From NCBI GenBank assembly GCA_963576725.1, contig OY755241.1, forward strand, positions 27,778,853-27,842,852: 64,000 nt of DNA, in the 5' to 3' direction. The position numbers and the translations under genes are program-made. Source of the DNA: Azorinus chamasolen. Lineage: Eukaryota > Mollusca > Bivalvia > Cardiida > Solecurtidae. The notes under the pieces were generated by a model. That model was not told the DNA's origin and did not search any database. It was given only the letters and a program-made list of their open reading frames with translations. Below, one piece after another: positions 3,334 through 57,837 of the stretch; the first letter of the stretch is position 1; each line of letters begins with the position of its first letter.

Positions 3334-4880
3334 CTGTGTTTGTTTTGTTGCAAAAATGCCAGATCAAAGGGCAGTAATTAAAGTTGGATTTCACAAATTA
3401 CTTATATACCAAAAGTTTGCAATCAGGTGATAAAAACTTACTTAATCTTAAAAGAGCATTCAGTTGTCCGGCTGCTTTTTTGCACATTTTAGCTATTTGT
3501 TCATTAAAATTTAGTAGATAGTCAATTGCTACCCCAAGCAGTTTAACACTGTTTTCACACTTTATATTCATTCCTTCTAAATTGAAGTTTATTATATTAT
3601 CATGCGTTTTCTTTCCCACAGCTATAGCTTGAAACTTGTCAGGGTTTGCTTGCATTAAGTTGAATTTGAACCATTTAATCAATGTGTTGCTTTCTTCTTC
3701 TAACGTAGATTTAAGGATATCAATATTTTGGTGGTTGTAGGATAATGTATTGTCATCTGCATAATTATAAATTTTAGATTTCTCAATAAAGTAGAAAATG
3801 TCATTCATGAAGATATTGTAGATTAGAGGGCCTAGTATTGAGCCTTGGGGCACCCCTTTCATAGTTTCAAGCCATGAGCTGTGGGAAAGTCCCACTTTAA
3901 CTCTTTGTTTCCTATTAGATAGGTAGTTTTCTATAAGAGTGCAAGCATTTTCTGACAACCCGTATGCACCGAGCTTGAGGACTATGAGGTCATGTGGCAG
4001 ACAATCAAAGGCCTTTGAAAGGTCCATAAGAATTGCTGCCACATGCTCCTTATTGTCTAGTGCAATTTTCCAGTCCTCAGCCAGGCACATCAGGGTTTTC
4101 TGACAGCCATATTTGGGTCTAAATGCTGACAAGTAATTGTGGAATATGTCCTCAAAGTATATACTAAGTTGTTCATTAATAATCTTTTCAAATATTTTAG
4201 AAGTTGATGTTAGTATACTGACAGGTCTATAATTTTTCATGGTAAAGGGGTCATCTTTTTTTAATAGAGGAGTAACTTGAGCTCTTTTGAGATTGTCTGG
4301 GAATATTCCTATGTCTATTATTTTGTTTGCTATGTTTGCCAAAGGTCTGGATATGGTCTCAGCTGAACATTTCAGGATTTTTGGAGGTATGTTGTCAATG
4401 CTTGTAGCCTTTTTAGGGTTTATGTTTTTAAGTAATTTGCATACATTTTCTGGTGAGACATGTCTGAAACTAAATTCTGCTTCACTTTTATTTTGATGTT
4501 TTTGTTCTATTTTCATTGTACTTGGGTGGGTCTAATCTACTTCTGAGTTAGAGTTAATGCCTATATTTTTTGCAATGTTTACATAATATTCATTGAAAAG
4601 ATCACAGACCTTAACTTGTTCAGAGATAAGGGTGTCATTTTCCTTAAGTATTATTTCATTTGAGTTATTTTGCAGAGATTTTTTTGATAAGAAGGGTTTA
4701 ATAGTAGGCCAGAAGTCTTTTGACTTCGGGTACTACCACATCTTTCTAGGAAATAAGTTTTCATTGATTCTCGTTTTACTTTGGTTTTAGTATTTCTTAG
4801 TTTTCTAAAGTTTTCCCAGTTTCTGCTTGTTTTGAATTTCATATATTTGTTGTGCGCTTGTCTGGTTTTGTGTAATAAGT
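3334..4880 (-). pseudogene. LINE A: linker and reverse transcriptase
   Basis: The open frame 3398-4516 encodes a non-LTR RT. It begins with the KATSIDNIPPKIL block and LLKKDDP...NYRPVSIL, followed by MDLSKAFDCLPHDL (motif A Asp), GVPQGSILGP (motif B), NYADDNTL (motif C, YADD intact) and KLLGVAIDY (thumb). After a TAA at 3398 the same frame continues as FVKSNFNYCPLIWHFC to 3334, where family B interrupts it. Upstream at 4651-4880 a frameshifted stretch (KFKTSRNWENFRKLRN) is the EN-RT linker. The endonuclease domain is absent, so the copy is 5'-truncated. It belongs to the jockey/CR1 group. It cannot be active because of the truncation, the internal stops and the split. Confidence 0.88.
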
Positions 4881-5586: not shown

Positions 5587-5805
5587 TTAACCCTTTCCTC
5601 CATAGGCTATTCTAAGACCCTTCTTTCAATGAATATACCCAAAAGGAGCATTTACTAGAGAAAAGTAAAAATTTAGAATTTTGTAGCTGAAACCATTGTG
5701 ATAAAGAGCATTTGCTCCTATAGGAGCAAATGCTCTATCACAATGGTTTCAAGAATTGGTTAGTACAGAGGCGTATAAAGGCGTATTTATGGACGAAAGG
5801 GTTAA
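5587..5805. mobile_element. TTAA MITE with central palindrome (family Q)
   Basis: TTAACCCTTTCCTCCATAG at the left and GGACGAAAGGGTTAA at the right. The centre is a perfect palindrome, GCATTTGCTCC-TA-GGAGCAAATGC. It interrupts a foldback repeat at CAGGTGGCTGC[TTAA]TGCAGG; the uninterrupted motif is seen at 23788 and 30805. Confidence 0.85.
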
Positions 5806-5885
5806 TGCAGGTTGAAAGTCATGAAGAAAGCTCCTTTGTGAGCTTTCTATATGACTTTCAACATGCACTTAGCTGCAAAGTCTTA
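5806..5885. repeat. Foldback repeat remnant
   Basis: TGCAGGTTGAAAGTCAT ... ATGACTTTCAACATGCA with inner GAAAGCTCC ... GAGCTTTC. This is the right part of the foldback element that was split by the MITE at 5587-5805. Confidence 0.6.
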
Positions 5886-6204
5886 CAGACCAGTTTGCAT
5901 ACTAGTTTTAACGTCAGACTTAGAGGAGTATTACAGTACCCCATAAACAAGGATTTTCACAACTCTGTAATTAGAGTAGACTCAGATCAGATGGCTCCTG
6001 TAGGAATTTATACATTTGAGACAATACCCCTACCTTTACTTCATATTACATGTATCCCTTTAATACATTTGTAAACAGAGTAAACCCAGATCAGATGGCT
6101 GCTGTAGTAGCATACACTCTGGAGACATACCTTAAACCTTTACTCCATTACTACACCTTTAACCTTTAGCATGCTTTAGCATGCTATTGGCAGATAAGTG
6201 AATA

Positions 6205-10605: not shown

Positions 10606-11756
10606 TTAATATCGGTTCCAAGTTGTTCACACTTTTTGACATGGTCTGAAACGATGGTCTTTTCGTCAGTAGTAACTGAAATGTATGACTTGGTATTAAT
10701 AATTTCCTGCTTCAAGACATCGATATAATGTAACCGTCAAATAATAATCACATTATTCGATGCCTTATCAGCAGGAACAAAAACGGATTTTGAATGGAAA
10801 TCCTGTAAACCCTTTTTAAGATGTCTAAAAGAAATTCTAGGTTTAGGTGGAAGAAGGTGTTTATTAGAGCTATAAAAGGAAATGCGTTTATCAATTATAT
10901 CAAAGATTAGTTTTTTCCAACCAGAAAGAGTATTAGACTCAACATGTTCTCTCCAACACCATTTAATACTAAAACTTTGTAAAGCCTCCGCAATCTGAAC
11001 TCGACAAGAATTAAAATCTATCAAGGATGGTATTCTATATTTGGGACCTTTATTCAAAAGAGATCGTAAACGTTTATCTTTAATTATCTCAAAATTACCA
11101 GTAATCACATGACCAGCCGGAGAATAGCAAAATTTTGAGGTGGCGCAATCTCAATTATCAGGAATATTATCATTAATCTTAAGGTCGGCTACAATTTTAT
11201 TATAGTTGAAAAGTGTACTTCTGATGGGTTTGTTATATTTGTAGCAGGTGGTTCTGTATTTTTAAAGTATTTAGGAATAGTGTCAATTACATTTTTGTCT
11301 CTAAAAATACTTTGAAGGTCAATAAAATCAATACCTTTATTAAGAAAAGGAATTTTCAAGAAGAATCTTTGGTGTTCAGATAATTTGTCAATGTGCGGTC
11401 TGAGAACATGTAAAGCTTTGTATCAAACTAGCCGTTCCTATGAGAGGATCTGATCTAAAAATAATTTTATCGGCTTGCTCGTCAATTTCTTTTAATGAAC
11501 ATATAGATAAGGAGGAAAGTCTAGAAAGCATGGCATGTTTACCAGAAGTTAGACGTAAAGTATGTAGATCAAGAATAGTCATTTTCAAACGAGATTTTCG
11601 TTTAATATTACATTTTTTGCGAATGCCATGTGATCGAGATTTGCGTTTTCTTATAGAAAAAATTGAAAAAATATCTATATCTGGTTCTTTTGAAATATTT
11701 CCAGTCTGGTAAATATTATCGTTCAGTCCTAAAGGAAAAGGTGTTTGCAATTCCAA
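10606..11756 (-). pseudogene. Naiad (Penelope-like) retroelement copy 2, fragment
   Basis: It carries, in order on the minus strand, the end of the GIY-YIG domain (LQTPFPLGLNDN), a basic RKRKSRSHG segment, the linker, the CxC region and the start of the RT domain (VPADKASNNVIII). It matches copy 1 throughout. In-frame TGA codons occur at 11151-11153, as the first residue of x-D-C in the CxC motif, and at 10737-10739 before RLHYIDVL. Both are at the same places as in copy 1. Two frameshifts are present (about 11390 and 11240). The 5' end stops at a (TTTA)n microsatellite and the 3' end is cut by the family D element. Catalytic RT motifs A-C are lost. Confidence 0.85.
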
Positions 11757-12195
11757 TAAGTCGACATTTATTAATGTATTTATTTATTTATTTATTTAAA
11801 TCACATCAAAACTTTGATAACGTCTTTGATATCAAAACGGTTGTGTATATAAATTCTGGTGATATGATGATAGAAAAAAGAGCACTTTTACTGTATTAAA
11901 GTTACTTTTAGTAAATTTATTTATTTATTTATTTATACAAAACTTTGATAACGTCTTTGATATCAAAACGGTTGTATATATATAAATGCTGGTGATATGA
12001 TAGAAAAAAAGAGCACTTTTACTGTATTAAAGTTACTTATTTATTTATTTATTATTATTTTTATTTTTTTTAAATCACATCAAAACTTTGATAACGTCTT
12101 TGATATAAAAACGGTTGTATATATAAATTCTGGTGATATGATGATAGAAAAAGGGCACTTTTACTGTATTAAAGTTACTTTTAGTAAACGCTAAG
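11757..12195. repeat. ~140-bp tandem repeat with (TTTA)n between units
   Basis: Three copies of a unit beginning TCACATCAAAACTTTGATAA and ending GCACTTTTACTGTATTAAAG, separated by TTTA/TTATTT runs. It borders the truncated 5' end of Naiad copy 2. Naiads are known to insert into microsatellites, so this is a plausible target. Confidence 0.75.
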
Positions 12196-12399
12196 TTTTG
12201 TTGTGGTGAAATATATACTCAAACACAAAAGAAACTGTTTATCGGTAATTTGTCCAGTTATGGGCGGACGAAGTTTGTTCTTAAAACAATTCAATTGGAG
12301 GTAAATTGAAATATTCAAACGTTGAGCCTCATCTTTGTCGAGGATTTTGTTAACCGTTTCTTGCTTGGTTTATCAACCGTAAAACGGTTTAAACCCCTA

Positions 12400-12640
12400 G
12401 TGGTGGTTTCGTTACTGACCGTGCCAAGGCGGTGCTCGCTTTGTTACCCTTCCTTTTGTTTGCTTTGTGCTTGTGTTTTTGTTCATGTGTGGAGTGTTTG
12501 TCTCTGGTTCTTGTGTGTCTGTTGGTGTTTTCTGTGTTTGTCTCGTGTGTGTATGTGTGTCATGCTGTCTACCGGTGTTTTGGTTGTGGTTGCGTCTTGT
12601 ATGTGGCTTTGCCTGCTTGACTTTACTACTTTTTCATTAA
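12400..12640 (+). repeat. Naiad pseudo-LTR-like fragment
   Basis: GTTACTGACCGTGCCAAGGCGGTGCT through GCCTGCTTGACTTTACTAC matches, with divergence, 57610-57835 and the reverse complement of 56030-56400. The ORFs in it are by-products of low-complexity T/G sequence. Confidence 0.55.
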
Positions 12641-13015: not shown

Positions 13016-14109
13016 CATTTTTTAAATATTATGTAATACTGTTAGCACGCCGCATTGACCTGTAACAGACCAATGAGTTTCTCACGCGATGACTGATCCA
13101 TGTTTACAACGTTTCCAGTTCTAGTTTTCTCACTTTACAAGATATCTTTATGGTCAACTGTAGGCAATACTATATATTATGTTTCACGGCTGCACTTCAA
13201 ACAGGGAATATGGTTACCCTTACTAATATTAAGTACTCGGACAGACGTGGGCAATTAGTACGGGCAATGATCAAACTGCTCCTGAAGGATAAACCCTGAT
13301 TACTTTGAAAACTAAGGCAAAAAGTGCAACCCAAGATCAAAACTCCTTCATCATTGCTTGAATTTATTTACATATTATTATAGATCATGTGCACCAATGC
13401 TTTGCTATTATGTGGGAAAAGATTATCTGTATATGCATGTTGCTGTTAACCCCGTCCCTAAGAAATGTCATGAAATAAAATACGTTTGAATATTTTTGTG
13501 CTCCGTTTTTTGGTTCAATTAAAATGCTACCCAAACGCCTAAAACCTCAGATCGCCGTACCTATCAAAGTTCTCCAACTTCCATAAAAATTATTGAATCT
13601 TTAGGAGACTGGATATTGAGTGGATAAATAGCAGCCTGGAGAGAAAAATTACTTTAAGTCCACTGAAATGTAAAGGTTTAGTTCAAATGATCTGACTTGA
13701 ATACAATATTCCGTTTGTTGTCCATAATTCCAGCGTAAAACTTCATCAAAGTAATATCATTAAGGTTTTACCTTTCTCCCACTAATCTCAACTTAAAACG
13801 TATTTTAACTAAGTTTGGGTCCAGATGAGGTACGAAGAGACTAGACACTCATCAGGATCATATCTCTTCGAAACTCTGCCAATAGATTATTGAAAGTTTG
13901 ATCAAATCAGATGTAGGTCTGTACTAGATTTTGGGATAATTTATTGACTAACTATATGGGTAAGGGTTAAAAGCGATACAAACATCATTAAATTTTAAAG
14001 AAATTTCTTTATGTTTATAATTGACGTGAACTATAATTCTATAAATTATAAAGTCTAACTATATGCACGATCACATCATGACCTTTCCTTTGATTAGCAC
14101 TATAGTGTT
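13016..14109. other. No gene seen; one decayed foldback
   Basis: AT-rich sequence without a convincing ORF. A decayed foldback at 13815-13880 pairs GGGTCCAGATGAGG with the CTCATCAGGATC side, and 13960-13973 resembles a GGGTTAA MITE end. Confidence 0.5.
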
Positions 14110-14535
14110 GTTTGTGCAGTGTGGCGGTCGTGAAACGTCTCCCCGTACATTCAATCAATATTGTTTTCCTCTTGCAGGAATTGTTCTACATCCAATGCGT
14201 TTCTTTGCACCTTAACACCGTACTTTGCACGTCATGGTGGCTTCGGTACTCACCGACATACTGTGTCACTTTCTTGATTTCTCTTTTTTAAGGCGAATCC
14301 CCTTTTTGATCTCGATATTACTTTACCTTACTGGTTTTTTTCTTACTTTATACCTTTCATTGTTTTCCTCACAGTCCACTTTATTACTTTCGTCGTAGCT
14401 GCTGGAATAGTTTTATTCTGTACTGGCTTTTAACTTTTACATGACTTTTCTTTTAGTTTGATATATTTTTACTTATTTGAAGTCTACCTTGATGTCGCTT
14501 TTTACGGAAGGGTGCTCAAACAACTAACAATAACT
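14110..14535 (+). promoter_or_regulatory. 5' untranslated/pseudo-LTR region of Naiad copy 1
   Basis: GTGTGGCGGTCGTGAAACGTCTCC through CTTTTAGTTTGATATATTTTTA is nearly identical to the reverse complement of 57041-57480 upstream of copy 3. The frame before the ATG at 14536 is not kept in copy 3, where a length change and a stop break it, so this part is taken as leader. Confidence 0.6.
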
Positions 14536-17334
14536 ATGAATAGTCTCCCTACAATAAAACTCAAAAACATAAAATTACACTCTGTGCCTTCTGTTCAGAT
14601 TCCTCATAATCTGGCTAATTTTCAATCTCTACAGCCGTCTGTTTGTATAAAACCTCTAAAACTATTTTCGGCTTCGTCTTTTCATGTTCCTTCGTCTGCT
14701 ATAAATAACGTTTTTCATAATGGACCTAAAATCGTGTTTTCTCCTTTAAAGCAAACTATCCTTCGTTATACTAAAGCTAATCTAAATTCACATTATTTGA
14801 ACAAAAGACATAGAGTATATCCAATTATTATAAAGTGCAATAGTAAGAGGTGTATGTGCTGCAATTTTATTTCTACTAGATCAACTATTAAATATCTTGT
14901 AAATGGTAGAGTGTTTAGTGTGAAGATTAATTCTGATGTAGACTGAAAATCGTCAAATATTATATATGTTATAACCTGAAATGCGCCACGCTGTGGTATT
15001 CAGTATGTAGGTCAGACGGGTCGCTCTTTAAAAACAAGGTTTCGGGAACATAATTACCATTCTCGTATCAAAAAAGTTCGCAATTTTCTTTACCAGCATT
15101 TTCGTCATACAGGACATTCATTTAAAAATGTTTCGGTTCAACCAGTGGAGCAACTTTATTATGATTCTAATACTACCAATAGTTTGAAATCTAAAGCTCG
15201 TTTTATCACAGAGCTAGACTGGATTAAAAAAATACAAACACCTTTCCCTTTGGGTTTGAATGACAACATTTTCCAAAGTGGTATATCTAAAGATATTTTC
15301 AATTAGAAAACGTAAAAGCAGATCGCATGGTAAACGTAGAAATCGTAATATTAAGCGCAAATTACGTCTTAATATGTCAGTTCACTATTTAAGAAACTGG
15401 CAAACATGCTATGCTTTCTTGTTTATCATCTTTGCCATTTTCTTGTATTCAGTCCATTGACGAGGAGGCTGATAAAAAATTTATGCGTACAGACCCACTG
15501 ATCAAAACTGCCTCTATTATACAAAGTTACACCCAGCATGTTCTTCGTCCTCATATTGATAAAGAATCTGAACATAAAAGACATTTTCTTAAACTTCAAT
15601 TCATAAATAAAGGTATCGACTTCATTGATATTCAAAGTATATTTCGTGATAAGAATGTAATCGATACTATTCCTAAATATTTCATAAATTCTGAATCACC
15701 TATCATCTGTTATAAATACAATAAACCAATAAGGAACGTTATTTTTAACTACAATAAAATTGTATCCGACTTAAATATTGATGTCAATACCCCTACTTCT
15801 TGAGACTGTAGCACTTCAAGCTTTTGTTATAAACCAGTTGGTCACGTCATTACTGGTAATTTTAATATTATTAAAGATAAACGTCTCAGGACCCTCCTTA
15901 CTAAAGGACCCAAATATAGATTACCTTCCCTTATTGATTTTGACACTTGTCGTACTCATATTGCTGAAGCTATTCAAGAATTCTGCATCAAATGTTGTCG
16001 ACGAGAACATGCTGATGTAAATGCCCTTTCGGATTGGAAAAAAACATGTTTTTGACATTATTGATACACGTATTGCTTTTTATAAATCTAATTACCATCT
16101 ATTACCACCTCGACCTAGAATTACATTTCTATATCTGAAGAGAAGCATTTCGAATTTTCATTCTAATTATGTTTTTGCTCCTGCTGACAAGGCATCAAAT
16201 AATGTAATAATTATGTGACGATTGTATTATGTTGATGTTTTGAATAAGGAATTAACTGGTTCTCAAACATATATTACAGTGCAAACCCCTGAAAAAGATA
16301 TAGTCACGAAACATGTAAAAATGTGCAATACTTTCAAGTCTAATCCTAACGTAAAACAACAAAAAAATCCGTATAAGGCGCGTTTTATTGCCAACTCTAG
16401 TTGTTGTACTACTACTAAACGTTTAACGTCGTGTCTTACTACTATCAAAGAACATGTTAAACGTTACTGTGATAAAATATATGACAATTCTGGTATTAAT
16501 GTTTTTTGGTCCGTAAAAAAGTCAAATGATATTTTAACTAAACTTGAAAATGAACAGTATAATATTTCTTGATTGAGCTCTTACGATTTCTCTACACTCT
16601 ATACTACTCTACCTCACCATCTTATAAAGGATAAACTGATTAAATTGATAGAAAAAACCTTTGCCAGAGAAAATAAAATGTTCCTTGCTTGTAATGTTCA
16701 ACGTCCATTCTTTTCGAATTCTGAAGTTGAAAATTACACAATGTGGACTTGCCTTGATGTTTGTAGATCTTTAACATTTCTTTTAGATAACATATTTGTG
16801 CGCCACGGGGATACCATATATCGTCAAGTTGTTGGTATACCTATGGGAACAAATTGTGCCCCTCTTGTTGCAGATTTGTTTTTATATTGCTATGAGGATT
16901 TCATGCTTAGTTTAAAACTTGATACACAATCTGACATTGTTAGTGCTTTTAATAAAACGTCTAGGTATTTAGACGATATTTTGAATTTGGATAATCCTTA
17001 TTTTGAAAATATGGTTTCTTCTATTTACCCAAAAGAACTTACTTTAAACAAAGCGAACCCATCTGACATTCAGGCTTCCTTTTTAGATTTGAATCTTTCC
17101 ATCACTAATGATAAAGTTTCGTCTAAAATATACGATAAAAGGGAAGACTTCGATTTCAAAATTGTTAATTATCCTTTTCTAGATGGAGATGTTCCCCGGT
17201 CTACATCTTATGGGGTTTACATTACTCAACTTATTCGCTTTCAATATATCAGCTATCAATATAGACCCTGAAACTGTATCTGCTGTAAAGTTCAGCTTAA
17301 TACAAATTCAAGTGTAATTACTGTTCATGAATAG
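14536..17334 (+). pseudogene. Naiad (Penelope-like) retroelement copy 1: GIY-YIG endonuclease + RT with in-frame TGA codons
   Basis: The start is ATG at 14536, where copy 3 also begins. In order: an N-terminal basic region with CNSKRCMCC; a GIY-YIG endonuclease (GIQYVGQTGRSLKTRFREH, about 14990-15290); a basic RKRKSRSHGKRR segment; a linker; a CxC region at 15801; a conserved APADKASNNVIIM block; then RT motif A (YDFSTLYTTLPH), motif B (VVGIPMGTNCAP) and motif C (RYLDDIL, catalytic DD intact). An endonuclease before the RT is the order of the Naiad clade; canonical Penelope elements have it after. TGA occurs in frame at 14944, 14977, 15801, 16216, 16570 and 17269, and the first four fall where Cys is expected. 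Apart from frameshifts near 15295, 15400 and the A7 run 16038-16044, there are no in-frame TAA or TAG until 17332. The C-terminus after SYGVYITQLIRF is abnormal, so the copy is probably dead. Confidence 0.88.
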
Positions 17335-17756
17335 ACTCAATAAAACCGAGTCTGCAACTTTCTCTTTTTGTGTTGCAATTTTTGCTCTCGGGGGACCACC
17401 CCCTTTCAGAATTTCTATTGAATCTTGGAGATCAGTGTCTATTTTTAGCTGGCTATTTTATGCATACATAAAAGGTAGGTTATCTCCCTTTCGCACTTTT
17501 TGAGTACAACTGGATTGCCTCCCTTCTGGATAATGGCAGTTGCAAATTAGATCTGACCAGTAAATAGAACAATTAACCCGTTACTCCATAAATATGCATT
17601 TCTACACCTTTGCAAACAGAGTAGACCCAGATCAGATGGCTCATGTAGTAGCCATCTGATCAATCTGCTGTATTTGCTTATGATATAATATAATGCAAAT
17701 TGCATTAAATTATTCTTATTTTGTGTACAATATACATGTACTTATAATATGTTTAC
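17335..17756. other. Naiad 3' flank and decayed MITE pieces
   Basis: The AGACTC-AATAAAACC-GAGTCT hairpin at 17338-17365 is shared with 12836-12870. From 17395 the sequence is unique. 17572-17690 has a decayed P-family palindrome (GCAAACAGAGTAGACCC ... GATGGCT/AGCCATC). Confidence 0.5.
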
Positions 17757-18001
17757 TTAAGCCTTTCCCTCATATAAATGACTTTTCATGCATTTGCAAA
17801 CAGAACACCCAAATCAGACGTCTCCTATAGCAGCTGTCTGATCTGTTTGTCAATGGAATTTGAAATATGTTTCTTTACTTTCTAAAATGGCTATACTGTC
17901 TCACTTTCCATATTTCATTACAACTATTTTGTCCATGAATATTCACTAGGTATTGAAATTTTGAACAAATATAGAACAGGGGAAGGGTTAAAAGTACATC
18001 A
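17757..18001. mobile_element. TTAA MITE, family P
   Basis: TTAAGCCTTTCCCTCATATAA ... CAGGGGAAGGGTTAA, with internal TGCAAACAGAACACCC and the GATATT-rich arm shared by all P copies (AATATTCA, GGTATTGAAATTT). Confidence 0.75.
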
Positions 18002-18109
18002 ATCTTAAGATAAGATATGAATAATAATATGAACTCATGAAGATGTAATGAAAATATCTGAAATTTTGAACATAAGTATAGATTAATTTATTCTTTCTGA
18101 ATTAAAATT

Positions 18110-19007
18110 TGCCCCACCCCAGGGCCGGCTAGTTTTCTATAAAAACATATAGTGAAATCTTTGAAAATCTTCTCGCCTGATTGGTGAGCGATGTCAGGGC
18201 CATTCTGTCCCTCTTGTTGGTTAAGGCTTTGTTAAAGTCCATTTATTTACATAACCCTTTGAGATAAAGCTTTTAAACTTGGAACACTTGTTCACCATCA
18301 CAATCTTCACCTGTAGACAAGAGTGCATAACTCTGTCAAGCATTTTGACAGAATTATTCCCCTTTTTAACTTAGAATTTTTGGTTAAGGCTTTGTTAAAG
18401 TCCATTTATTTACATAACCCTTTGAGATAAAGCTTTTAACCTTGGAACACTTGTTCACCATCACAAGTTTTACCTGTAGGCAAGAGTACATAACTCTGTC
18501 CAACATTTTGACAGAATTATGCCCCCTTTTAACTTAGAAATTTTGGTTAAGGTTTTGGTTAAAGTCCACTTATTTACATAACCCTTTTCGATTAAGCTTT
18601 TAAACTTGAAACACTTGTTCACCAACACAAGCTTCACCTGTAGGCAAGAGTACATAACTCTATCTAACATTTTGACATAATTATGACGCGTTTTAGCTTG
18701 GAATTTTTGGTTAAGGTTTTGGTTAAAGTCCACTTATTTACATAATCCTTTCAGATAAAGCTTTTAAACTTGAAACGTTTGTTCACCATCAGAAGCTTCA
18801 TCTTCATCTCCAGCATTTAGACACAATTATGGCACTTTTTAATTTAGAATTTTTGGTTAAGGTTTTTTGTTAAAGTATGCCTATTTACAACCTTGAAACT
18901 TGGTCGCAAAATTGGACTTAGAATTTGAATTTAGCAAATACGTTAACCCCAATTTATGTTGAACAGAAACTCGACTGGCGTATATTGTGCCCACTGGCAC
19001 TCTTGTT
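18110..19007 (-). mobile_element. Two joined elements of the AACAAG superfamily (families G and T)
   Basis: On the minus strand a head AACAAGAGTGCCAGTGGGC (hairpin GTGCC/GGGCAC) at 19007 opens a body of five ~160-bp repeats (TTTGGTTAAGG, CATTTATTTACATAACCC, GTTCACCATCAC), start-to-start distances about 160. At 18218 a second head, AACAAGAGGGACAGAATGGC with GCTCACC, starts a family T fragment inside it. Confidence 0.65.
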
Positions 19008-41652: not shown

Positions 41653-43360
41653 AACAAGAGATGTTTGTAAAACATGTATACCCCCCAGACCCCCTGACCT
41701 TTGATCTAGTGACCTCAACTATAGAGGTCATCTAGCGGTCATGACTAATCACCACAGCAACTTTGAATATCCTAAGCCAAACCACTGATCATTTATTGAT
41801 CTGAAAACATTTTACATATTAAGGTCATGGTGACCTTGACCTTTGACCTAGTGACCTTAACAACATTAGGGGTCATCAAGTGGTCACAACCAACTACCAC
41901 AGCAAGTTTGAAGATCCCGAACCAAACCATTGAGCAGTTATTAATTGGAAACCATTTCATCAGTTAAGGTCATGATGACCTTGATCTTTGACCTAGTGAC
42001 CTAAAAAATAATAGGGGTTATCTACTGGTCATGACCAACTACCACAGCAAGTTTGAAGATCCTAAGACAAACCATTGAGCAGTTATTAATCGCAAACCAT
42101 TTCACCAGTTAAGGTCATGGTGACCTTGACCTTTGACCTAGTGACCTAAAAAATAATAGGGGTTATCTACTGGTCATGACCAACTACCACAGCAAGTTTG
42201 AAGATCCTAAGCCAAACCCTTGAGCAGTTATTGATCGCAAACCTTTCACCACTTAAGGTCATGGTGACCTTAACCTTTGACCTATTGACCTTAAAAACAA
42301 TAGGGCTCATCTAGTTGTCATGACCAACCACCTAAGCAAATTTGAAGATCCTAAGCCAAACCATTGAGCAGTTATTGATCAGATATCATTTAACAAGTTA
42401 AGGTCATGGTGACCTTGACCTTTGACCTAGTGACCTCAAATACAATAGGGGCCATCCAGTTGTCATGACCAACTACCCCAGCAAGTTTGAAGATTCTAAG
42501 CCAAACCCTTGAGCAGTTATTGATCGGAAACCATTTGACCAGTTCAGAGCATGGTGACCTTGACCTTTGACCTAGTGACCTTAAAAGCTTTAGGGGTCAT
42601 CTAGTGGTCATTACCAACCACCACAAATTTGAAGATCCTAGGCCAAACCCTTGAGCAGTTATCGATCGCAAACCATTTCACCCTTTAAGGTCATGGTGAC
42701 CTTGACCTTTGACCTAGTGACCTAAAAAACAATAGGACTCATCTAGTTGTCATGACCAACCACCTAAGCAAATTTGAAGATCCTAAGCCAAACCCTTGAG
42801 CAGTTATTGATCAGAAACCATTTTACCAGTTAAGGTCATGGTGACCTTGACCTTTGACCTAGTGACCTCAAAATCAATAGGGGTCATCCAGTGGTCATGA
42901 CCAACTACCACAGCAAGTTTGAAGATTCTTAGCTAAACCCTTGAGCAGTTATTGATCGGAAACCATTTAACCATTTAAGGTCATGGTGACCTTGACCTTT
43001 GACCTAGTGACCTCAAAATCAATAGGGGTCATCTAGTGGTCATGACCAACCACCACAGCAAGTTTAAAGATCCCAAGCCAAACCCTTGAGCAGTTATTGA
43101 TCGGAAACTATTTCACCATTTTAGGTCATGGTGACCTTGACCTTTGACCTAGTGACCTCAAAAACAATAGGGGTCATCTACTTGTCATGACCAACCACCA
43201 CAGCAAGTTTGAAGATTCTAGGCCAAGTCGTTTATTAGTTATCGTTCGGAAACCATCGATCTACCGACTGACCGACCGACAGACCGACCGACCGACCGAC
43301 CGACCGACCGACATGTGCAAAGCAATATACCCCCATTTTTTCAAAAGGGGGGTATAATAA
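41653..43360 (+). mobile_element. Family K element: ten 145-bp units with ERE and DR1 motifs
   Basis: Head AACAAGAGATGTTTGTAAAA (hairpin TGTTT/AAACA), then GTATACCCCCC. Tail: a GACCGACCGACC run, CAATATACCCCC, loop, GGGGGGTATAATAA. Units start at 41821, 41966, 42111, 42255, 42400, 42545, 42687, 42832, 42977 and 43122. Most hold AGGTCATGGTGACCT, GACCTTTGACCT and GACCTAGTGACC. No ORF. It lies just upstream of ZDHHC12. Confidence 0.85.
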
Positions 43361-55914: not shown

Positions 55915-56420
55915 GGGATGGAATAAGTGTGAGGTTGGGCGCCCAAAAAACCGGTTTAACCCCACAGTGACTTTTGTCACTGACGTTCCAAGGCGGTACT
56001 TCCATCTTCACCCTGTTGTATGAAAAAGTAGTAAAGTCAAGCAGGAAAAGCTATGGTGCACACAAAACGCCACCATCACCAAAACACCTACAGAAAGCAT
56101 AGCAATTTATACTCATACACACACAGTAGAAAGTCACATACAAGACGCAATCACCACCAACAAATCAATAGACAGCATGCCCCCCCCCCCCCCACACACA
56201 CACACAAACAAACAAACACACGCAAACACACTAGAAGAACACATAAAACACCAACAAATACACGAGCACCAGAGACAAACATGAACAAAACACAAGGTCA
56301 AAGACAAAGGACAAAGAAAAGTAAGGGTGACAAAGAGAGAACCGCATTGGCACGGTCAGTAGCAAAATCACCACTGGGGGTTTAAACCGGTTTACGGACG
56401 TCCTAACCTCACACTTATCT
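55915..56420. repeat. Inverted Naiad pseudo-LTR block
   Basis: AGTGTGAGGTTGG ... CCGGTTTAACCCC and CCAAGGCGGTACTTCC (plus sense) at 55925-56010 recur inverted at 56345-56420 (GCATTGGCACGGTCAG, GTTTAAACCGGTTTACGG). Between lies a CA-rich stretch. The 110-codon ORF here is not a gene. Confidence 0.65.
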
Positions 56421-56604
56421 CAAAGTCACCCTAGCTAAACAAACATTGTAAATAAAGTATCCCCGCCGGACTTCCCCACAACATAGAAGACAGTAATTAC
56501 AGTACAAAATGTAAAACATAGCATAACAACTGCGAAAGTCCGTCAAATATGTACTCAATGACTTTGCTGAAGACAGAGCAACTGCAGGGAAGTCGTTAAG
56601 GTTA
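56421..56604 (-). other. Junction sequence next to Naiad copy 3
   Basis: Unique sequence. The Naiad homology stops at 56605, exactly at ATAACC, where copies 1 and 3 diverge one codon before the second TGA site. Confidence 0.5.
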
Positions 56605-57480
56605 TAACATATATAATATTTGAAGATTTTCAGTCTACATCAGAATTAATCTTCACACTAAACACCCTACCATTTACAGGAGATTTAATAGTTGATCTAG
56701 TAGAAATAAAACTGCAACACATACATCTCTTGCTATTGCACTTTGTAATTATTGGATATACTCTATGGCTTTTGTTCAAATAATGTGAATATAAATTAGC
56801 TTTAGTATAACGAAGGATAGATGGCTTTAAAGGAGAAAGCACGAGTTTAGGTCCATTATGAAAAACGTTATGTATATCAGACGAAGGAACATAAAAAAAG
56901 GAAGACGAAAATAGTTTTAGAGGTTTTATACAAACAGACGGCTGTAGAGATTGAAAATTAGCCAGATTATGAGGAATCTGAACAAAAGACACAGAGTGTA
57001 ATTTTATGTTTTTGAGTTTTATTGTAGGGAGACTATTCATAGATTTTGTAGTAGTTGTTTGAGCACCCTTCCGTAAAAAGCGACATAAAGGTAGACTTCA
57101 AATAGGTAAAAATATATCAAACTAAAAGAAAAGTCATGTAAAAGTTAAAAGCCATTACAGAATAAAAATATTCCAGCAGCTACGACGAAAGTAATAAAGT
57201 GGACTAAAGAGACTGGGAGGAAAACAATGAAAGGTATAAAGTAAGGAAAAACCAGTAAGGTAAAGTCATATTGAGATCAAAAAGGGGAATTCGCCTTAAA
57301 AAAGAGAAATCAAGAAAGTGACACAGTATGTCAGTGAGTACCGAAGCCACCATGAAGTGCAAAGTACGGTGTTAAGGTGCATAGAAACGCATTGGAGGTA
57401 GAACAATTCCTGCAAGAGGAAGAAAACAATATTAATTGAATGTACGGGGAGACGTTTCACGGCCGCCACACTGCACAAGC
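56605..57480 (-). pseudogene. Naiad copy 3: leader and N-terminal region
   Basis: The leader (GTGTGGCGGCCGTGAAACG at 57465 downward) and coding start MNSLPTIKLKNIKLHS at 57040 match copy 1 closely. The frame runs to TGA at 56630-56632 and continues as KSSNIIYVIT, so the first TGA of copy 1 is conserved here. The copy then breaks off, so the GIY-YIG core and RT are missing. Confidence 0.85.
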
Positions 57481-57837
57481 AACACTATTGTGCTTATAAA
57501 TGAAAAATGTTTGTTTTGTCTTTGTGCGTCTCTTGATGTTTTTATAGTTATGAACATTTGCTGTTTCCTTGTGTTGCTGTTTGGGCGGCTATTTGTTCTG
57601 TATGTGGTGTTACCCCCGGTGACTTTTGTCACTGACCGTTCCAAGGCGGTACTTCCATCTTCCTCCTATTGTATGTTTGTTTTGTCTTTGTGCGTCTCTT
57701 GTTGTTTTTTCTACCTATGTACATTTGCTGTTTCCTTGTGTTGCTGTTCGGGCGAGTGTTTGTTCTGTATGTGGTGTTTCCTGCATGACTCATTTTTGTA
57801 CTTTCCTGCATGACTCATTTTTGTACTTTTAGTAATT
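57481..57837 (-). repeat. Naiad pseudo-LTR, two tandem units
   Basis: On the minus strand two ~180-bp units of GGAAACACCACATACAGAAC, GCAACACAAGGAAACAGC and ACGCACAAAGACAAAACAAA, joined at GTCAGTGACAAAAGTCACCG. Its outer end (AAGTACAAAAATGAGTCATG) is present twice. The edge joins LINE B after WGELLK. Confidence 0.7.

Follow-up and report, generated by a model that had tools for sequence, protein, structure and literature searches.

In-frame TGA codons at conserved cysteine positions of a Naiad-type retroelement family in Azorinus chamasolen: evidence for a protein with several selenocysteines

Copy 1 and its relation to Naiads

This work deals with a retroelement that resembles the Naiads, a group of Penelope-like elements, and lies within a 64,000-nucleotide (nt) stretch of the Azorinus chamasolen genome (contig OY755241.1). 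We call this stretch the window, and all coordinates are window positions unless a locus is named. One copy of the element, designated copy 1, has TGA codons in frame at 14944, 14977, 15801, 16216, 16570, and 17269, as read directly from the sequence. In the family of copy 1 (family A), TGA codons are conserved at sites inside the element, and four of these sites match cysteine (Cys) positions of related proteins. A hairpin in the form of a selenocysteine insertion sequence (SECIS), with some covariation, follows the coding part, and a gene for selenocysteine tRNA (tRNA-Sec) is present in the genome. With high probability, the family is a Naiad-type Penelope-like retroelement whose single protein, composed of a GIY-YIG endonuclease, a CxC linker, and a telomerase-like reverse transcriptase (RT), is a selenoprotein.

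The assembly searched comprises 1.72 billion bases. When it was queried with 606 bases of copy 1, 2029 first-look candidates yielded 40 scored matches; one of these is copy 1 itself, and the other 39 were fetched and read. Related proteins were obtained by a search with the joined pieces of copy 1, in which X was placed at every TGA. It found 141 proteins, 120 of which were listed and used (P0001–P0120); some of the listed relatives carry Pinctada protein names. One relative, P0026, is a Naiad RT filed in public databases as a hypothetical protein of Campylobacter sp.; most likely it is animal DNA within a bacterial assembly.

Copy 1 lies on the plus strand and was read as four open pieces (14536–15293, 15293–15406, 15405–16046, and 16042–17331) joined through three frameshifts. 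An earlier note on this DNA, made from the sequence alone, claimed that apart from three frameshifts no TAA or TAG interrupts the frame. Indeed, neither codon was found inside the four pieces, the first TAG being at 17332. The 5' untranslated part (14084–14535) probably begins at 14084, where the matches of copy 2 (see below), L012, L046, L025, and L041 begin. The N-terminal piece (14536–15293) is the frame of the GIY-YIG endonuclease (Pfam GIY-YIG, E 6.9e-06 over 14941–15305) and has a frameshift at its end. A short basic stretch (15293–15406), read in another frame, leads from the endonuclease to the linker, and at or near both of its joints most copies have extra bases. In the linker domain (15405–16046) the CxC motif is replaced by U-D-C. 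The RT frame (16042–17241) was recognized by homology to P0001–P0120, and no Pfam family was found in this piece. It has internal deletions and is broken off at 17241; RT stretches present in many copies, including the ...YW-PKLHK... motif of the relatives, are missing from copy 1. Its frameshifts, deletions, and lost 3' end mark copy 1 as a dead member of the family.

The family match ends exactly at 17241 in 34 of the 39 other copies and at 17239 in one; three stop earlier, and L040 is the only copy that crosses this point, by a gap-ridden bridge into a dispersed repeat. The sixth TGA (17269–17271) is beyond 17241, the end of the family match, and thus is not a codon of the element. It has no reading in 38 of the 39 copies, L040 shows GAA in a gap-ridden alignment, and only 6 of the 120 relatives have a residue aligned with it, none of them Cys. 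Therefore 17269 was rejected as a selenocysteine site: all six TGA codons listed in the earlier note are where it placed them, but only five belong to the element. By the same token, copy 1 has no true C-terminus. The 3' tail of the family was not found downstream of copy 1 within the window.

Several repeats lie nearby. A dispersed repeat of ~100 bases at 17315–17414, just past the break of copy 1, occurs also near copies L009, L011, L018, L021, L026, L028, L037, and L040. Dispersed short repeats resembling short interspersed nuclear elements (SINEs), with ~69–91% identity and on both strands, are found directly 3' of copy 1 (17572–17993) and in many other places of the window. Weak matches to the model of transfer-messenger RNA, far under the gathering score, lie antisense to the Naiad open reading frame, on the minus strand at 15243–15473 and in L021, L033, and L031 (+) near 4363–4468. 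These are most likely chance matches.

The order of endonuclease and then RT, which the earlier note also gave, is borne out by GIY-YIG in copy 1 and by two relatives, P0022 and P0025, in which GIY-YIG (over the Pfam cut-off) precedes RVT_1 (E 0.00099 and 0.00015, both under the cut-off). No Pfam RT family was found in P0002, P0003, or P0005. Taken together, the domain matches point to an N-terminal GIY-YIG followed by RT. For a predicted structure of P0022 (mean pLDDT 82.6), ranks 1–14 in Foldseek are telomerases, with a best E of 9.9e-11 and TM-scores by query length of at most 0.33. The predicted fold suggests that the RT is related to telomerase RT; the RT sequence of copy 1 had no significant match in the PDB. 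The CxC linker (Cys columns 425 and 427) is U-D-C both in copy 1 and in a second family, family B, described below. In the endonuclease part, where only Cys was scored, the conserved Cys columns are 101, 106, 109, 137, 148, and 153; the endonuclease of Naiads has a CCHH motif. GIY-YIG before RT, the CxC linker, and the telomerase-like predicted fold of a relative fit a Naiad.

Naiads were reportedly named by Craig, Yushenova, Rodriguez and Arkhipova in 2021 (Mol Biol Evol 38:5005-20), and clams and spiders are said to have Naiads with several selenocysteines, so the kind of element described here is a known one. It shares with Naiads the permuted order (GIY-YIG, CxC linker, RT), a high copy number, and several apparent selenocysteine codons. 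Two families and, seemingly, three selenocysteine states are seen here in one genome. Canonical Penelope/Poseidon elements have an RT of the telomerase kind, and we know of no selenocysteine in them. They are like the present family in combining such an RT with a GIY-YIG nuclease. Their GIY-YIG domain is C-terminal, as stated in PMC11167929. This order is the reverse of that found here. A literature search of partial coverage found no work on selenocysteine-coding retroelements, which is not evidence of absence from print. In viral contigs, a search with the linker piece gave 10 pattern matches, none of them confirmed, and no DNA relatives of copy 1 were found in plasmids.

TGA codons in the copies and in the relatives

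The codons at the five sites of the element were tallied in the fetched copies. At 14944, 27 copies are readable, with TGA in 26 and TGG in one. At 14977, which was tallied in this set only, TGA is found in 28 and AGA in one of 29 readable copies, and there is one gap. The codon at 15801 is TGA in all 39 copies. TGA is also the codon of 34 of the 36 copies readable at 16216, the remaining two having AGA. At 16570 the 37 readable copies have TGA (27), TCA (seven), TTA (two), or TGT (one). Over the five sites TGA fills 154 of the 168 readable cells, and TAA or TAG none. All other codons of the 39 copies include 105 stops in 29,968 cells (24 TGA, 61 TAA, 20 TAG). The TGA pattern at the sites is far beyond chance.

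Since the fetched copies were picked by their likeness to copy 1, we also searched the genome with patterns that had exact flanks and a free codon. Copy 1 or other window copies are among the matches for 15801, 16216, and 14944. Among 100 listed of the 124 matches for 15801, TGA was found in 94, and TGT, TGG, AGA, GGA, TTA, and TAA in one each. For 16216 the 100 listed of 167 matches gave TGA in 96, and CGA, TAA, AGA, and GGA in one each. The 44 matches for 14944, including copies 1 and 2, gave TGA in 37, TGG in four, TCA in two, and TAA in one. For 16570, among 100 listed of 199 matches, there were TGA (55), TCA (39), TAA (three), and TGG, TCC, and TCT (one each). A backward-pattern control gave no matches for any of the patterns. 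A count of this kind had been suggested in the earlier note, whose proposal would have been refuted by TGC/TGT as the consensus at the sites or by TAA and TAG matching TGA in frequency. The outcome was the opposite: the codon is TGA, not TGC or TGT, and TAA and TAG are rare or absent.

In the relatives, the site at 14944–14946 (residue 137) falls on a Cys column, with Cys in 29, Asp in two, and Ser in one of 32 aligned proteins. All 28 relatives that have a residue at 14977–14979 (residue 148) have Cys there, and six more are gapped. The first Cys of CxC corresponds to 15801–15803 (residue 425; Cys 45, Trp six, other 10 of 61). The site at 16216–16218 (residue 566) is again on a Cys column (Cys 82, Trp 14, Pro one of 97). 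The earlier note placed the first three TGA codons exactly where Cys is expected. This is correct for all three, but the count rises to four with 16216. The fifth site, 16570–16572 (residue 684), is on a serine (Ser) column and is specific to a lineage; among 116 relatives it is Ser in 80, Gln in 11, His in nine, and Cys in none. Under random codon hits, four of five sites would fall on Cys columns with p 6e-8, a value that assumes 11 hand-set Cys columns among 905 and ignores mutational access. Other columns with at least 70% Cys (residues 101, 106, 109, 153, 427, 629, and 779) remain Cys in copy 1.

Five relatives (P0001, P0002, P0006, P0007, and P0034) have Trp at both 425 and 566. P0005, P0011, and P0074 have Cys at 425 and Trp at 566, and P0093 the reverse. 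An alignment made with MAFFT instead puts Trp at 425 in four rows and at 566 in 19. Because translation table 4 renders TGA as Trp, we take the double-Trp relatives to be probable further TGA-coding elements.

The site at 16570 divides family A. In an unrooted FastTree tree of 38 copies, built with the codon of the site removed and without the overly short L041 and L042, all nine copies that have TCA (seven) or TTA (two) cluster (local support 0.924). Outside this cluster are the TGA copies and the single TGT copy, on very short inner branches. Being unrooted, the tree does not give the direction of change. The simplest reading is that a single-base change from TCA to TGA occurred within family A and was followed by amplification of the lineage. 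This direction is preferred because most relatives have Ser, and family B has Thr, at this position; a return from TGA to TCA is possible.

A genome search with P0003, a Cys-type relative, gave 54 scored matches of 39,360 first-look candidates. All 54 have TGA as the only stop in the matched stretch (two TGA in 53 of them, three in one), and in most of them reading through the stops leaves an open frame of 915 residues. L050, which is among these matches, shares 96% identity with L049 and 69% with copy 1, and therefore was taken as family B. It consists of a single open frame in which TGA occupies the 14977, 15801, and 16216 sites. The codon of its 14944 site is TGT (Cys), and that of its 16570 site, like that of L049, is ACT (Thr). 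The window contains a fragment of this family, copy 3 (10611–11753, minus strand), with ~70% DNA identity to copy 1 and TGA at the 15801 and 16216 sites (11153–11151 and 10739–10737). Besides copy 3 itself, a search with it listed 39 matches (of 2696 first-look candidates), each 96% identical to it. Such uniformity would result if copy 3 is a decayed member of a young family with little variation, and this is probably its origin. An ATTT-rich tandem array with a 131-base unit (11782–12188) abuts the broken 5' side of copy 3. It recalls the microsatellite insertion bias reported for such elements. Another, large tandem array occupies 41695–43256 with ~11 copies of a 145-base unit; the window contains many satellites like it.

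The 3' end and the candidate SECIS

The sequence past the 17241 point was followed in 34 copies. In better-kept copies the protein of the element ends with ...FACTMTGRG and the stop codon TAG; ~640 nt then lead to a common end. A hairpin starts 6 nt past the terminal TAG and consists of AUGA, a helix, an AAA loop, an apical helix, and GA. It was located by its start in 32 of the 34 tails, a way of selection that forces AUGAUGG; CCAGAC is kept in 27 and UAAACCC in 23 of these 32.

Among 4227 Rfam families, SECIS_1 matches the 3' stretch of L016 best (21.5 bits, E 0.19). It is also the best match, in the same place, in the family B copies L049 (26.0 bits, E 0.11) and L050 (26.0 bits, E 0.053). 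An Rfam run on six loci gave 23.9, 22.9, and 22.1 bits for L031, L010, and L039, respectively (E 2.1–6.2), and 26.0 bits (E 0.56) for a family B-type end inside L034. Base pairs were counted in 21 family A sequences and one of family B, exact duplicates being left out. In the helices of A versus B, 87.6% of cells are paired, and only 30–55% are when the partner is slid by 1–3 columns. Both sides have changed in four of the 11 pairs, which none of 500 shuffles reaches. The core motifs, the position, and some covariation make the hairpin a candidate SECIS. It is similar to the eukaryotic SECIS of Rfam (RF00031) in AUGA, the AAA loop, the GA core, and a helix with an apical helix. It differs in its location, 6 nt past a retroelement's stop codon, and in scoring under the Rfam cut-off.

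No SECIS was found at the gathering score in the whole window or at E 5 in 14000–19000, where copy 1 is without its 3' end. A home-made SECIS scan under strict fold rules gave no match. The earlier note had pointed to the 3' untranslated region (UTR) as the place to look for a SECIS. Run on single copies, the search finds a SECIS-like hairpin in copies that keep the 3' end, though not in every one, at scores under the Rfam gathering score.

The tRNA-Sec gene of the genome scores 80.7 bits (gathering score 47). Two more places score 47.2 and others lower; the lower-scoring ones look like tRNA-Ser. The tRNA-Sec model also matches in all 14 control genomes and exceeds the cut-off in five of them. 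Beside the Naiad copy in L033 there are two tRNA-like matches on the minus strand, at 5760–5832 and 6016–6088 (61.1 and 44.9 bits), possibly a tRNA-derived SINE or real tRNA genes.

The 3' UTR of the family is also present in the window. Copy 2 (56013–57505, minus strand) consists of a 5' part (57505–56596, 93% to copy 1 14084–14980) joined to the 3' UTR (56601–56013, 90% to L016), with the middle deleted. TGA is kept at its 14944 site (56632–56630); the 14977 site, where the first match ends, has TTA. The two fused parts have 6 bases in common at their junction (56596–56601), as after a microhomology deletion or a template jump. On the plus strand, 12377–12640 holds two stretches that match the family A 3' UTR at 75% and 86% and have no coding part.

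Selenocysteine and other readings of the TGA codons

The earlier note proposed an RT with several selenocysteines, and both the codon tallies and the SECIS-like hairpin support this, with the amendment that there are five sites, one of them non-Cys. Dead copies such as copy 1, with its frameshifts, deletions, and 3' truncation, could also acquire TGA codons by ordinary nonsense decay. The tallies reject this explanation, which we regard as having practically no chance of being right: decay would not make TGA the codon in 154 of 168 cells at the same five sites, with no TAA or TAG among them, while the other stops are scattered and mostly TAA. It would also have to account for three sites common to two families that are ~30% apart and for the 54 matches of P0003 with no stop other than TGA in the matched stretch. 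UGA could be read as another amino acid, for instance as Trp by general readthrough or by editing of UGA to UGG. Trp does stand at two of the sites in some database relatives, which is also expected from table 4 translation of TGA, and TGG was seen at 14944 in 4 of 44 free-codon matches. Yet four of the five sites are mostly Cys in the other relatives, the SECIS-like hairpin with some covariation is located just past the stop, and the tRNA-Sec gene is present. We therefore consider such a reading very improbable.

The site at 16570 is a separate matter. If UGA is read as selenocysteine there, Ser has been replaced with selenocysteine. Alternatively, the four TGA codons at Cys sites encode selenocysteine and 16570 is a true stop; the lineage must then have had help from other copies, spreading with the enzyme of Ser-type copies. 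Ser at this position in 80 of 116 relatives, as well as a group of TCA copies of its own that coexists with TGA copies, agrees with this possibility. However, TAA would serve equally well as a stop, and it was found in only three of the 100 listed matches, against 55 with TGA and 39 with TCA, which is one base off. Furthermore, in the 27 TGA copies other in-frame stops are not in excess downstream of 16570 (20 of 5618 cells, versus 57 of 15,807 upstream); the seven TCA copies have 9 of 1484 downstream and 13 of 3931 upstream. This count is a weak test, as most stops arise after insertion. The rarity of TAA and the lack of a downstream excess argue mildly against a true stop, which we find unlikely although it deserves attention.

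Several observations weigh against reading the family as selenoprotein-coding, or against parts of that reading. The support is at the level of DNA and protein sequences, from which the insertion of selenocysteine is inferred. The 39 copies were selected for resembling copy 1, and patterns with exact flanks are biased towards young copies. Only one copy of family B (L050) was read at all five sites, and 16570 is Cys in no aligned relative. All SECIS matches (21.5–26.0 bits) are under the Rfam gathering score of 35, and in the six-locus run the A-type ends of L033, L021, and L034 gave no SECIS at E 10. The pair alignment excludes five family A sequences (L012, L019, L043, L045, and L047) that have indels or a broken core. 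The covariation comes from the one B sequence (three pairs) and from L033 (one pair). Of the 11 pairs, one fails to form in 21 of the 22 rows, and the +3 slide also gives four pairs with changes on both sides, though with 31% paired.

Selenocysteine coding in this family would work as follows. The mRNA of the element would carry the SECIS hairpin 6 nt past its own TAG stop, and the host machinery (the tRNA-Sec found here, with SBP2 and eEFSec assumed) would read every in-frame UGA as selenocysteine, while UAG would end the protein. The order in which the sites were gained may also be inferred. Families A and B share the 14977, 15801, and 16216 sites; the 14944 site would have been gained in family A, from Cys to selenocysteine, and the 16570 site last, in one lineage of A, from Ser to selenocysteine. 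This suggests a ladder of three, four, and five selenocysteines across lineages in one genome. The nuclease sites lie within Cys-rich stretches (columns 101, 106, 109, 137 and 148, 153) and the linker site in CxC. Our guess is that each of these three sites may put one selenocysteine into a separate group of Cys residues, likely to bind metal or to act in redox chemistry.

The SECIS may have made TGA a usable sense codon, so that selenocysteine sites accrued stepwise as in a ratchet, three in family B, four in Ser-type copies of family A, and then five, even at a Ser position. We put this forward tentatively, as quite possible but on balance slightly doubtful. If it is true, the lineage with five selenocysteines, which makes up 55 of the 100 listed family A matches, turned a Ser codon into TGA without halting its amplification. 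In that case these families would document in replicate, within one genome, a recoding of the genetic code under way in a selfish element.

Selenocysteine is costly and usually stands alone in redox active sites. Here is a retroelement that appears to have several selenocysteines at conserved Cys positions of a nuclease-RT protein, seemingly with one gained at Ser. Its many datable copies may provide a test of why Cys becomes selenocysteine, be it for chemistry, for selenium-dependent control, or by drift once a SECIS exists. The family is also a warning that standard annotation will label such elements dead.

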